Source: an uncultured Succinivibrionaceae bacterium (GTDB lineage Bacteria; Pseudomonadota; Gammaproteobacteria; Enterobacterales; Succinivibrionaceae). From it: DNA of 64,000 nucleotides. Below are positions 15,721-62,288 of this stretch, piece after piece. Both the position numbers and the translations under genes were made by a program. The notes below the pieces were generated by a model that was given only the letters and a program-made list of their open reading frames with translations, had not been told where the DNA came from and made no database searches. The stretch spans positions 1 through 64,000 of the forward strand of contig CALXOV010000026.1 in NCBI GenBank assembly GCA_944390105.1, written 5' to 3'. Numbering within the stretch: the first letter of the stretch is position 1; each line of letters starts with the position of its first letter.

Positions 15721-16418
15721 GATCGATACAGCTGATGAGTGCGGATATAGTGTAGTACCGGGGCGCTTAACATGTTTTGTATCTGCGTGTTTGCGCTGGG
15801 GGCGGAGACACTTAGCGCTGCTAGCTGCGCGCGCAGCTGCGTTGAGGAGACATCATCCTCCTGCGAGGGCAGGATAAATACACGGCCTTGCGGTTGCTGC
15901 ACTTGCTGCTTGAAGGATTCATCCTGTAGCGGCGTAATATGGGCTGTAAGGTAGTTTTTGAGTGCACTATCTGCAATGGTATCTAAATTAAAGTAATACC
16001 CAGGTCGGGTAAAAGCTACCACATGGGCAAAGTCAGTTAGTTCCAGCCCGCGATGCCACGTATGGAGCATTAATAGTGAATCCATTCCCATGATGAAAAA
16101 GAGCCGCGCCTTTGGCCCATACTTAGTGCGCAATGCCTGCAGCGTATCGTAGGTATAGTGGCAGTGTGTGCTTTCCTCCTCCAGTGTCGAGACTTGATAC
16201 TGACGCCGATTTAAGGACTTTAAGGCCAATCGGCTCATCTGCAATCGTTCCTCAAAGCTGGAAAAGCTGCCATCTTTATGCGGCGGATTGGCATTGGGAA
16301 TCAAATACACCTTATCTAAGGCAAATACGCGTCTACATTGCTGCGCCAAATGCAGATGCCCTTTGTGAATCGGGTCAAACGCTCCCCCCAAGAAGCCTAA
16401 GGCTTTAGGCTGCTCCAT
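15717..16418 (-). CDS. nadD: Nicotinate-nucleotide adenylyltransferase
   Basis: Converts nicotinate mononucleotide and ATP to deamido-NAD, the step before NadE. About 233 residues. The nucleotidyltransferase motif is seen in FLGGAFDPIHKGHLHLA and the C-terminal motif SSTQLRAQL (ISSTxIR equivalent). The ATG at 16418 overlaps the last 14 bases of holA, in the usual holA-nadD order; the open frame extends to a TTG at 16433. Confidence 0.94.
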   Translation of the reverse strand: MEQPKALGFLGGAFDPIHKGHLHLAQQCRRVFALDKVYLIPNANPPHKDGSFSSFEERLQMSRLALKSLNRRQYQVSTLEEESTHCHYTYDTLQALRTKYGPKARLFFIMGMDSLLMLHTWHRGLELTDFAHVVAFTRPGYYFNLDTIADSALKNYLTAHITPLQDESFKQQVQQPQGRVFILPSQEDDVSSTQLRAQLAALSVSAPSANTQIQNMLSAPVLHYIRTHQLYRS

Positions 16419-17487
16419 AGCGCATTGCTCCAAAGTTAGTGACAGCTACCGCCATGGTCTGCAGCAGTTCCTGCGTACCTGTAAGTTCAAAGCGTGCATG
16501 GCGTAGCGCACATTCTTTTAAATTTAAGATAAGGAAGTTCAAAAGTTCTGGCGGCATCCCCTGCGCGGCCTGCAGACAGGCGCGCTTGAGTGCAGGGGTG
16601 ACAATGCCGTTTTTAAGTAAGAGTGCCTGCGCATCGCGATCATTTGTCCGCTGTGTGCGCAGTTTGACGATAAGATTTAAGCAGGTATCAAGCCGTCCGA
16701 TGATAAGCGGCAGATTGGCCGCAGCTCCGCCACTACCTGATGCCGTGACCGCATGCAGAATATTAAGCGCGCGCAAGCCTTGGCCGGACAGCAGCGCCTC
16801 GGTAAATTCAAAGGCTGAAAAGCGGCTGTCCTCAATAAAATAAGTATCCAAATCTTCAGGGGTAATGGCACCTTGTTTGGCATTGAGAGCCATCAACTGC
16901 AACGCTTGATCAATGGCGCTAAGATTGCCCTCGTTTAACGCCGACAGCAGGGCTGCGGTATTTTTATCGATGGTAAATCCTGCCTTAGCGCAGCGCTCAC
17001 CAATAAAGCGCGTCAGCTGCGCTCCACTGGGCGGATACATGATTTCAAGAATGGCGCCTAAATATTTTAAATTGGCAATAGCGGTATTCTTGCTGTCAGC
17101 ACGTTTATTGGGCTTGTCACTGATCTCTTTGGGAGCAAGTTTAACAAAGCTGGCATTTAAGCGCGGCAGGTCGATAATGGCAAAAATCCCTGGGCGAAAA
17201 TAGCGGGCTAAGCAACTTAGAACTTGGGCCGCCGTGGCATCATAGTCCTTAAAGTACAGCTTTAGAATACGATCGCCGCCGAAAAGCCCCGGGTCGCGCA
17301 GTTCATTTTCCAGTAGGGTTAAATTGGCCGGGCCGCCGGCTGCTTTAAAGTCGCCTTCGGTGAAGATTAAATACTGCGCATCAGGCAGTAACTTGCGGGC
17401 CGCAGTCATCAGCTCATCGGATCGATCTTTTTTCAGCAGCGGCTCATCGGAGCTTAAGATATAGATGTAAGGCGGTGAATCTGGCAT
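16405..17487 (-). CDS. holA: DNA polymerase III delta subunit
   Basis: Clamp-loader subunit that opens the beta sliding clamp. About 360 residues from the ATG at 17487, preceded by AGGAAC; the frame upstream to 17508 starts at TTG. Family landmarks: YIYILSSDEPLLKKDRSDEL at the N-terminus, LENELRDPGLFGGDRILKL and SRFSAFEFTEALLSGQ. It lies upstream of nadD as usual, but lptE, its normal upstream neighbour, is now more than 3 kb away. Confidence 0.9.
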   Translation of the reverse strand: MPDSPPYIYILSSDEPLLKKDRSDELMTAARKLLPDAQYLIFTEGDFKAAGGPANLTLLENELRDPGLFGGDRILKLYFKDYDATAAQVLSCLARYFRPGIFAIIDLPRLNASFVKLAPKEISDKPNKRADSKNTAIANLKYLGAILEIMYPPSGAQLTRFIGERCAKAGFTIDKNTAALLSALNEGNLSAIDQALQLMALNAKQGAITPEDLDTYFIEDSRFSAFEFTEALLSGQGLRALNILHAVTASGSGGAAANLPLIIGRLDTCLNLIVKLRTQRTNDRDAQALLLKNGIVTPALKRACLQAAQGMPPELLNFLILNLKECALRHARFELTGTQELLQTMAVAVTNFGAMRYGAA

Positions 17488-17767
17488 GGCGTTCCTATCA
17501 ATCTGCAAAAAAGCACGCTATGTTCTTACACTGCAGAAAAAAGCTTTAAATTAAATAAGATGTCTGTAATTTGCGGCGGCAAGTCAACGGTTTTCGGCTA
17601 ATTTATGCGAGTTTGGGGGCGTGCGTTTGCCTTTTTGTAATGCTATGTTAGTACAGAGCATGCTGCAAGCATAGCGCAAAACTTTAAAGGGTGGCAAGCC
17701 AACTTTGCTAGCTTCAGTGTGTGCAAATGACCTAAATTTTAGAAAAAACATAGCAGAGGAACTTAAT

Positions 17768-19014
17768 GTGAGTCCTATGCAGAACATTGGTATCATCACT
17801 TTAACGCATACGGATAATGATAATTTTGGCGCTTACATGCAGTCATATGCGCTAATTGAGGCTCTGCGCCTGCAGGGGACTAAGCTTAAAGCGCAGGGAC
17901 TCATTCAAGAGCAGGTCAATGCGGGATTAGTGCAGTATCGTGAGATGAGCCCTTATGCTATCGCCAAACAACGTTCGCGCCAAGTCTTAACTCAAAGCGG
18001 TGCGCCTGACCCCAAACGTGCAGCCTTGCAGGTCTTTAAAAACCATCTGCCGCGTCTACGCAAATTTGCTGCTTTTGGACAGGCGCAGATGCTGCGTTTA
18101 CCGCCGCAGAGTGATGCTAGAAAAATTAAATTTATTATTGGTAGTGATTGGGTATGGCATTTATATGCTGTTAATGGGTGGGGGGTATTGCCTTAAATAA
18201 AATACTGTTCGGGGATATACCTGGTTTTGATTTAAATCCTAAATATGCTTATGCGGCAAGTTTTGGCAAAAGCCTGCCTGGTAATACATCATATCAGCAT
18301 TTCAAGCCTTACATCGCGGCCAGTTTGGCCAAATTCCGTTTAATCAGTCTGCGTGAGCCCGATTGGCTCAATGAACTTACGGCCTTGCAGTTGCCGTGTG
18401 CGCCAATTACCGTAGCCTTGGATCCGGCGCTTCTGCTTGATGCTCCGCAGCATGCTGGATTTACGCGCCGTCCAATGCTTAGTGAGCCATATGTTTTGTT
18501 GTATCTCTTTGGGCCACATTATGGTGCTACTGAGTCCCAGATGCATACCGTGTTGGATTGTATTGCAAATTATCGTCGAGCTTTAGGTTTGGCTAATTTG
18601 GCCGTACTGGATATTTCGCCAGGTCCCATTTTTACAAATGCGGCTTTGCAGCAGCATGCAGCAAAGCTCAAACTTCGCTATGTATGGCGCTTTGCGACAT
18701 CGCCGCAGGAATTTGTTAGTTTTGCCGCCTACAGCAGCTTAAGCTTAACCAATTCCTTTCACTGCGCCGTCTTCAGCCTGATTTTTGGGCGCCCCTTCAT
18801 GTACTGTTTTCTGCATGCACACGATCCGCGTATGCGCTTTTTAGAAAATAGCTTCGGTATGGCAGCGCTGCAGCTAGACCCGGACTTGGCCGCAGATTGC
18901 GTAGCGCTACAGCAGCGCGTGGCAGGAGTACATGCGCGATTTACGCAGGAGCTGCCTAGAATGCGCGCCCATTCAATCGCGTTGCTACAGCGTATTATCT
19001 TGGATGAGCCGTGA
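17768..19014 (+). pseudogene. Polysaccharide pyruvyl transferase, split by a frameshift
   Basis: Two frames together make one PS_pyruv_trans protein of about 415 residues. The first runs from a GTG at 17768 (good site AGAGGAA; ATG 17777 also possible) through NIGIITLTHTDNDNFGAYMQ to FIIGSDWVWH and stops at 18194-18196. The second continues with ILFGDIPGFDLNPKYAYAASFGKSLP and ends at 19014, with SLTNSFHCAVFSLIFGRPF near the C-terminus. The break is at the G6 run 18180-18185; one more G restores the frame. Enzymes of this family add pyruvate ketals, or act on related sugars, in capsule, LPS or teichoic-acid synthesis. It is followed 10 bases later by a second broken gene and inserted between holA and lptE. 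Confidence 0.8.
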
Positions 19015-19024
19015 GGAGCTTAAC

Positions 19025-20660
19025 ATGAGCTATACGTATCTACATTATGCTGCCGCATTGCTGCACGCCTACGGCGTTAAGCATGTGGTAGCCAGTCCCG
19101 GCACACAGAATGCTTTTTTTAATCTAATTTTAGATAGTGATCCGCGTTTTACGGTTATCAGTGCAGTGGATGAGCGCTCGGCGGCTTACATTGCTAAGGG
19201 GCTGAGCGCTGCTACCGGAGAGCTGGTGGCGCTGACTTGCACGGAAGCAACAGCAAGCCGTAATTATCTGTCGGCACTTACGGAATGTTATTACAGTCAT
19301 CTGCCGGTAGTGGCACTTACTTTCTATAATGCCGCAGGCAGTGCGTCCTCCTTGGCACCGCAATTTTGCGATCGTTCGCAGCCGCCACGTGATACCCAGA
19401 TTTTTAGTGCACAGCTGCGTGCGCCGGCAAGTCAGTTTGAGCTTATGCTGGGGCTTGAGCTTATGCATCAGGCTTTGTTTACTGCACAAACTCAGCACGG
19501 TCCGGTGCATTTAAATATCCCAAGTATCTGTAATTGGTCGGCAGCGGCAGACTTAAGTCTGCCGCAGGTTGCTCCTTGTCGTACGATCACCCGTGATGAG
19601 CTTAGCAAAATTGACTGGAGTTCGCTGCAACATAGACGTACCGCTATTTTTATTGGTGCGCATGCGCGCTTTGAAGAGAGGGTGCAGGATTTAATCGGAA
19701 AGTGCGCCGAGCGTTACGGTTTACCCGTATTCTGCGAGCTAAGTTCAGGTTATTTCGGTGCCAATCGTATCAGCACGGCACTAGCAAGTGCACAGCTATC
19801 TCTGCCAGATGATGTGATGCCGCAATTTATTATAGACATGGGAGGGATCTGTGCTGACTATTTTGCTGCGCGTTTATTTGCACATGCGCAGGTATTACGG
19901 CTATCGCCTGACGGTAAATTTACCTGCCGCTTTCATCGTATTCCTCAGTTTATCTTTACGCTCAATGAAAAGGAATTTCTTTGCCGATTTATTACAGATT
20001 GAGCACTTTGGTAGCGATAATTCTTACGCAGGTTACGTGCTTAAAATGGCAGCACATTATCGCTATCCGCCGCTGCCTTTGAGTACCGCACTGGTGCAGT
20101 CGCTCTTGAGTGTACGTCTGCGCGGACGGTGCAGTTTGCACCTTTCTATTCTCAATGCCTATCGGATGGCTAACTGTTTTAATTTTGCTCCAGAGGTTGA
20201 GGTCAGTTGCAATACTGGAGGTTTCGGCATTGATGGTGCGGTCTCGACCTTAGTGGGCACGGCTTTGGCTGAGCGCAGTAACTTGTGCGTTGGGGTGGTG
20301 GGAGATCTAGCATTCTTTTATGATATGAATGTGTTGGGACTGCGCGATATCCCTCCCAATCTGCGCCTTATTGTCATTAATAACAGCGGCGGCGAGGAGT
20401 TTCGTCTCAATCGTGGATTGAATTTTTACGTAAAGGACAAAATAGAACCTACGGTAGCAGCTGCCGGGCATTATCGTCAGGGCGTCAAGGCTTGGGCTCA
20501 AAGCTGCGGTTTTCATTATCAACAAGTTACTAGTAGCGAAGAGCTGCCGCAACAGCTGGATGCTTTATGCTGTAAAGATGCTAAGCGTCCGATGTTACTT
20601 GAAGTCTTTACTCAAGATAAGAATGAACAGATAGCCTTTAGGCAGCTTTTTGGCAATTAG
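19025..20660 (+). pseudogene. MenD-like thiamine-diphosphate enzyme, split by a frameshift
   Basis: The first part (19025-20002, strong site GAGGAG) has the N-terminal TPP-enzyme domain: VKHVVASPGTQNAFF, VDERSAAYIAKGLS (Glu region) and GPVHLNIP. The second part, in another frame to 20660, has the TPP-binding domain with SCNTGGFGIDGAVST and GDLAFFYDMN...VINNSGGEEF, as in MenD and phosphonopyruvate decarboxylase-like enzymes. Removing one base in the run TTTCTTT near 19976 joins them into about 545 residues, the MenD length. No other menaquinone genes are near, and its pairing with a polysaccharide pyruvyl transferase suggests a role in a surface-glycan precursor rather than in quinone synthesis. 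Confidence 0.75.
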
Positions 20661-20917: not shown

Positions 20918-21688
20918 TTACATGCGGGTATTAATCGAGGACGGCGCTTCGTGCAGTAGCTGCGGTGTGACCGGTGGCAGTTTAGGATCGGTATACTTAC
21001 GGCCGTTATTGAGATCATCAAGCGTAGTAGCGTCAGCCTGTGCCGCTTCGGCGCTGTCCTGCGCCTGTAGTGCCTCAATAATCGTCATGCCTTCATATGG
21101 ATTTTTCGTTTCAACGCGTGAACTCGGGTCATCCGCGCTTTCCACTAAGTCCTGCGGCAGCGGCACGCGTGCATCAGGATCGGACTCGCGGCCTAAGTAT
21201 CCAAGGCGTAGCACCATCTGCGCGGCCAGCTCGTCGTAAGTTTCTGCCGTCACGATCGCAATCTCATTTTCCGAGGCCAAGGAGTGGCCGGTCTTATTGA
21301 GCACGGTACGCGTCAGCGAGTTCTTCATGATGATGGGGCGATGGTTGGGGATAAGCAATGTCATCGCTACTTGCACAAAAAGATTGCGCTCCAGCGCCTG
21401 TGCGCGTGAATCTACTGCTACCACGATGTTATCTACGGACGGCTCCGGGATAAGCAGGGTGGGTACAGCATCGTTGACCGCAAAGCCGGCATCGCCTTCA
21501 GCATTGACCTTAACGCCGCTGATACGCAGCTTCTGTACCACGAGCTTATAAAAAGCATGGTGATACTCGCCTTCGACATTGATCTCCGGCACTGCTTCAT
21601 TAAGCTTGGTCTGATGCGGAAGATGAAAGCCGCAGGCGCTGAGCGCAAACAGGCTCAGCGACAGCAGGCAGCAGACTGCAAAACGCAC
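20918..21688 (-). CDS. lptE: LPS-assembly lipoprotein LptE
   Basis: Outer-membrane lipoprotein that plugs the LptD barrel and helps LPS insertion. 256 residues with a GTG start; the lipobox LSAC puts the acylated Cys at residue 19. The RlpB/LptE pattern is visible in FYKLVVQKLRISGV and YDELAAQMVLRLGYLG. The C-terminal ~75 residues are an acidic, Pro-rich extension not found in E. coli LptE (193 residues). It follows leuS on the same strand, the conserved order. Confidence 0.9.
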   Translation of the reverse strand: MRFAVCCLLSLSLFALSACGFHLPHQTKLNEAVPEINVEGEYHHAFYKLVVQKLRISGVKVNAEGDAGFAVNDAVPTLLIPEPSVDNIVVAVDSRAQALERNLFVQVAMTLLIPNHRPIIMKNSLTRTVLNKTGHSLASENEIAIVTAETYDELAAQMVLRLGYLGRESDPDARVPLPQDLVESADDPSSRVETKNPYEGMTIIEALQAQDSAEAAQADATTLDDLNNGRKYTDPKLPPVTPQLLHEAPSSINTRM

Positions 21689-54604: not shown

Positions 54605-54614
54605 GGGGGGGGGG
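54605..54614. repeat. G10 homopolymer tract
   Basis: Ten consecutive G in the intergenic region upstream of the minus-strand oxidoreductase and before the second IS relic. Confidence 0.85.
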
Positions 54615-62275: not shown

Positions 62276-62288
62276 GGGGGGGGGGGGG
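62276..62288. repeat. G13 homopolymer tract
   Basis: Thirteen consecutive G about 95 bases before the start of the RpiR-type regulator, in its leader or promoter. Confidence 0.85.

Follow-up and report, generated by a model that had tools for sequence, protein, structure and literature searches.

When a gene for a surface glycan is found split at a run of Gs, is the run a switch that turns the gene on and off, or merely the place where the gene broke? The question is raised by a polysaccharide pyruvyl transferase gene (PF04230) of an uncultured Succinivibrionaceae bacterium (GenBank assembly GCA_944390105.1), within positions 1 to 64,000 of contig CALXOV010000026.1. This 64,000-nt stretch is called here the window. 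The initial annotation took the form of the interruption to be that of a phase-variable locus and named assembly error and decay as the alternatives.

A transferase gene in two frames

The gene lies in two reading frames (Table 1), and the change from one to the other is confined to 21 bases. No single open reading frame encodes the whole enzyme. On the downstream side the frame is open from directly 3' of a TAA all the way to 19014, and on the upstream side the first half runs into a premature stop. The zone between contains GGGTGGGGGG (18176-18185), that is, GGGT at 18176-18179 and then G6 at 18180-18185.

The second half belongs clearly to the PF04230 family, its score lying above the curated Pfam cut-off of 25.3 bits, and intact homologues of 423-427 amino acids exist in two genomes of Anaerobiospirillum (G060 and G062). 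Unlike those intact enzymes, the window gene is divided, and its first half gives no match in the Pfam scan. In alignments to three homologues from Anaerobiospirillum, that half nonetheless pairs with the N-terminal half of each (33-37% identity) and the second half with the C-terminal half (36-38%); further comparisons of the second half with Anaerobiospirillum homologues gave 38-40%. Apart from the break, both halves are open and well conserved. It was correct, then, to see here one surface-polysaccharide gene split at G6.

Is the coincidence of break and run telling? For a 21-base zone placed at random in this window, the expected number of overlaps with a G/C run of at least six is 0.0034. 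So low an expectation is still no proof of a switch, because ordinary indels favour runs too. A programmed frameshift was also considered and was ruled out by a loop whose length is unlike that of the homologues and by the broken state of the next gene. A search of solved structures returned only chains named 'Glucanase', at E 0.37 or worse, and no relatives. An AlphaFold model of the intact G062 enzyme, meant to locate the tracts on loops, had a mean pLDDT of 44 and was not usable.

Table 1. Positions of the split genes, the frame-break zone and the flanking genes in the window
Feature	Position	Strand	Remarks
holA (presumed), intact flank	16405..17508	-	one frame; 65-75% identical in four genus-mates
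Transferase gene, first half	17777..18196	+	open frame, ATG at 17777 to premature stop at 18194-18196
Frame-break zone	18175..18195	+	TAA at 18172-18174 in downstream frame; stop at 18194-18196 in upstream frame
Transferase gene, second half, other frame	18178..19014	+	PF04230, 55 bits, E 1.5e-14
Thiamine-pyrophosphate (TPP) enzyme gene, first half	19025..20002	+	PF02776, E 8.2e-18
TPP-enzyme gene, second half, other frame	19977..20660	+	PF02775, 19.8 bits, under its cut-off
lptE (presumed), intact flank	20918..21688	-	adjoins holA in three genus-mates

A second break, and an insert

The gene that follows is broken as well. It encodes a TPP enzyme (19025-20660), whose first half is 49% and second half 54% identical to an intact homologue of 550 amino acids in G062, the second half corresponding to its C-terminal part. 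Its frame changes at about 19977-19993, where the sequence is rich in T (TTTCTTT) and has no G run.

The two broken genes stand together between two intact ones, which from knowledge of the family I take to be holA and lptE. Among the comparable genus-mates (G004, G003 and G001; the holA contig of G002 has a different neighbour, without lptE), only this genome has the transferase-TPP pair at this place. The spacing between lptE and holA is 95 nt in G004, 134 nt in G003 and 235 nt in G001, and 3.4 kb in the window. The pair also differs in composition, with third-position GC of 0.44-0.48 against 0.53-0.65 in nine neighbouring genes. The protein of the second half, used as a query against 59 genomes, matched only in this genome and in G005, with no match in genus-mates G001-G004. 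Queried with a four-row alignment, genus-mates G002 (best E 2.4e-10) and G003 (1.9e-7) gave weak matches.

Are the breaks real? Between 3.6 and 36.4 kb of the window, all 25 conserved neighbours are unbroken, each matching in one frame and one alignment. The control drew its open reading frames from the matching stretches of the genus-mates, after removal of overlapping lower-scoring matches, mostly antisense shadow frames. Since 25 of 25 neighbours keep a single frame, two breaks in adjacent inserted genes look real.

Homologues in Anaerobiospirillum

The four-row alignment was searched against 56 genomes of the family, of which 18 matched at E <= 0.001. Strong matches (best E 1.4e-120 or better) were confined to five: this genome and G062, G005, G059 and G060, all four of the genus Anaerobiospirillum, which holds the nearest relatives of the transferase. 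A profile search of genome contigs with the transferase alignment confirmed 12 of 56 stretches. Four of these were from Succinivibrionaceae, three of them titled Anaerobiospirillum and the fourth 'uncultured Succinivibrionaceae bacterium'. A contig search with the second-half protein alone gave 20 pattern matches, none confirmed.

The relatives differ in the state of the gene. In G062 it is intact, with 426 residues and an in-frame G9. In G005 a G11 is in frame, yet a TAG lies upstream of the tract. The G059 gene is broken and reads GGGGAGG at the site of the G062 tract, the two being 95% identical across the part they share. G060 has two intact copies and a fragment, and the 17-kb stretch that holds both copies contains no run of seven or more.

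The tracts do not share a site. The loop from GSDWVW to YAYAASFG measures 72 nt in G005 and in both G060 copies, 90 in G062, 88 in G059 and 86 in the window. The run starts 18 nt into the loop in the window and 67 nt into it in G062, and in G005 the tract is upstream of the loop altogether. Each of these three (window, G062, G005) has its tract at a different position in the gene; the tracts therefore do not represent one inherited tract and are either separate gains or a coincidence.

The company the gene keeps is likewise only partly the same. In all four Anaerobiospirillum genomes the PF04230 gene is accompanied by a gene like that for the F420-hydrogenase beta subunit (a name given by resemblance). 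A TPP enzyme follows the cassette in G062, which has an intact three-gene version, and in G059. The window resembles these last two in its TPP gene, and it is unlike all four in having no F420-hydrogenase-beta-like gene, the TPP gene beginning 10 bases past the stop of the transferase.

Is the run a switch?

The standard for comparison is Campylobacter, where, in the available part of the PhasomeIt survey (PMC6321876), poly-G tracts of at least seven are candidates and those of at least eight have been shown to switch. The window gene resembles the Campylobacter glycan genes described there in having a G run on the sense strand of a surface-glycan gene and a change of frame within a zone that includes the run. 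It differs in length, its six Gs, with a T between them and GGG, falling short of both the candidate cut-off of 7 and the length of 8 that was tested. It differs also in that its operon has a second break elsewhere: the transferase halves are open, and the TPP gene, rather than being intact, is broken.

The longer G tracts of the window, of 10 and 13 bases, had been offered in support of a switch. They exist (54605-54614 and 62276-62288), and both are intergenic, for which reason they were dismissed as support. The second lies about 95 bases upstream of a gene that by resemblance is RpiR-like. With two further tracts just beyond the window (G000:C26 64455-64465 and 64609-64621) it makes three G/C tracts, of 13, 11 and 13, inside 2.4 kb, all outside clear coding frames.

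I propose that the locus is probably a laterally acquired, decaying two-gene surface-glycan cassette whose transferase is locked OFF. A cassette of pyruvyl transferase and TPP enzyme would have entered this lineage between lptE and holA, its source probably a relative in or near Anaerobiospirillum. A change of length in or beside the G run of the variable loop would have cost the transferase its reading frame; the TPP enzyme would have been broken by an indel of its own, at a place with no G run. Neither a complete transferase nor a complete TPP enzyme could then be produced from these genes, and G6, cut off by a T from three further Gs, would be too short to slip back efficiently. The proposal is favoured because the run is under both Campylobacter lengths, its partner gene is independently broken and the insert looks recent. 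Decay is thus the best fitting of the alternatives that the initial annotation had named. Two considerations pull the other way. The break in the transferase could be recent, the halves being otherwise open and well conserved. The TPP gene may be dispensable to the transferase, given that G005 and G060 have only weak TPP matches, located elsewhere in the genome.

Could the run be what is left of a switch? Under this finer form of the decay explanation, compatible with it, the donor was phase-variable, and a T substitution together with shortening locked the gene OFF, so that G6 is the shrunken and frozen relic of a longer tract. Relatives do carry G9 and G11 in their copies of the gene, and the GGGGAGG of G059 shows the G062 tract site interrupted, at another length, in a gene that is broken. 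A type ISP restriction gene of G060 has G6 exactly where its relatives have G10-G11. The loop of the window is 14 nt longer than that of the tract-free G060 copies. Against this, the window run is off the alignment position of both the G062 and the G005 tracts, and any G6 would be favoured by ordinary indels as well. I regard the idea as tentative, possible but somewhat doubtful.

It is improbable that the run is an active switch, flipping at low frequency in this species. The gene is of the right kind, in a bacterial family that seemingly uses poly-G tracts, and a G13 of the same genome splits a glycosyltransferase-like gene in a polysaccharide locus. It is too much, though, to ask this of a G6 under the switching lengths known from the available part of PMC6321876, in an operon whose partner is broken by a lesion outside any repeat. 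What stands of the phase-variable interpretation is that relatives carry G9 (G062) and G11 (G005) in this gene family. What does not stand is an active switch here, in view of the short run, the TPP break away from any G run, the insert and the different sites of the relatives' tracts.

Finally, the possibility that both breaks are errors of sequencing or assembly in an intact cassette, raised by the 66-contig draft state of the genome and the error-prone nature of G runs on some sequencing platforms, is very unlikely, as it needs two independent errors in adjacent genes, one of them off any G run, amid 25 conserved genes that show none.

Poly-G tracts beyond the window

How common are such tracts, and in what genes? 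This genome has 21 G/C tracts of nine or more, the two long tracts of the window included. A survey of coding tracts, where coding means that an open frame of 240 nt or longer flanks the tract on each side, took in 50 tracts of at least nine, 20 of them in this genome and 30 in G005, G060 and G062. The tract at 54605 was outside the script and was seen separately to be intergenic. Neighbourhoods covered 14 of 16 distinct tracts of ten or more in G005, 9 of 10 in G062 and 4 of 8 in G060. Tracts close to contig ends were excluded as possible sequencing artefacts, two in G060 and some in G062 being kept despite such a position.

Three of the 20 tracts tested by script in this genome were coding, as were 16 of the 30 surveyed in the three Anaerobiospirillum genomes. 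All but one of these 16 carry their Gs on the coding strand (binomial p 0.0005), a bias like that of Campylobacter as given in the available part of PMC6321876, and seven are in frame and nine out of frame. A Pfam scan of protein pieces from tract-bearing genes found a family for 15 of 19 and none for four. The families include DNA methylases (PF01555), type ISP and Eco57I-type restriction enzymes, FkbM methyltransferase, glycosyltransferases and the sulfatase fold; among the other matches is a pyruvyl-transferase-like gene, under its cut-off.

In the window's own genome, a glycosyltransferase-like gene is divided by a G13 (G000:C53 45257-45269; L065:8885-10299); its PF01501 score, 23.5 bits, lies just below the cut-off of 24.3. 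The locus includes a gene resembling that for UDP-galactopyranose mutase and a second, intact transferase-TPP pair. This gene is the best candidate for phase variation in the genome. A glycoside hydrolase family 32 gene is also split, at a C9 run (G000:C20; L055:3301-4763).

In the methylases among the loci compared, the motif CTK(I/T)V is followed directly 3' by G9-G10 in 8 of 8 occurrences, a count that leaves aside two more motif-like matches in unrelated DNA of genus-mates. An array in G061 (G061:C90, L193) contains five tracts, G9, G9, G11, G9 and G8. Clusters of PF01555-type methyltransferases with G8-G11 were seen in Anaerobiospirillum, in G061:C90, G059:C23, G029 (two stretches), G005:C16 and G062:C127, and their tracts mostly come right after CTK(I/T)V. 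These clusters look like a large phase-variable methyltransferase set. Methylase genes with no internal run of at least seven also occur: three in an array of G018 and those of the G062:C99 and G033 stretches. Type ISP restriction genes have G11, G10, C9 or G6 at one site just before the motif TAIQCKFF (L120, L139, L174, L175), and other type ISP homologues have no run at that site.

It might be supposed that unstable tracts reflect a missing mutS. This was ruled out, MutS being matched in 51 of 56 genomes of the family, this one included. In 10 of 10 Anaerobiospirillum genomes the match to the model is in two parts, and there is an insertion near model position 372.

A contingency system in the Succinivibrionaceae?

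On balance I favour a broader proposal, to be taken as a whole: that the Succinivibrionaceae have an undescribed contingency system based on poly-G tracts, to which the window gene belongs as a stray. Anaerobiospirillum would switch enzymes of surface glycans, pyruvyl transferases among them, through sense-strand tracts of G8-G13. Many genes for DNA methyltransferases and restriction enzymes would be switched by the same kind of tract. Some of these would stand in tandem, as many as five methyltransferase genes in an array, and share one conserved site for the tract. Glycan cassettes that carry tracts would also reach neighbouring genera, there to decay or persist.

The literature searched held no report of phase variation in Succinivibrionaceae or Anaerobiospirillum, the papers on restriction-modification concerning, by their titles, other organisms. 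Nor did it hold one of a poly-G switch in a pyruvyl transferase gene, the available parts of PMC6333632 and PMC13343947 included. The capsule of Akkermansia is phase-variable through DNA inversion, another mechanism (PMC13343947, available part).

Taken alone, the window offers something modest, a decaying glycan cassette acquired laterally. The tract repertoire of Anaerobiospirillum as a genus is of more interest than the window's own gene. It is the relatives that suggest that, in this family of gut bacteria, surface sugars and DNA methylation are subject to phase variation of the simple-sequence kind.
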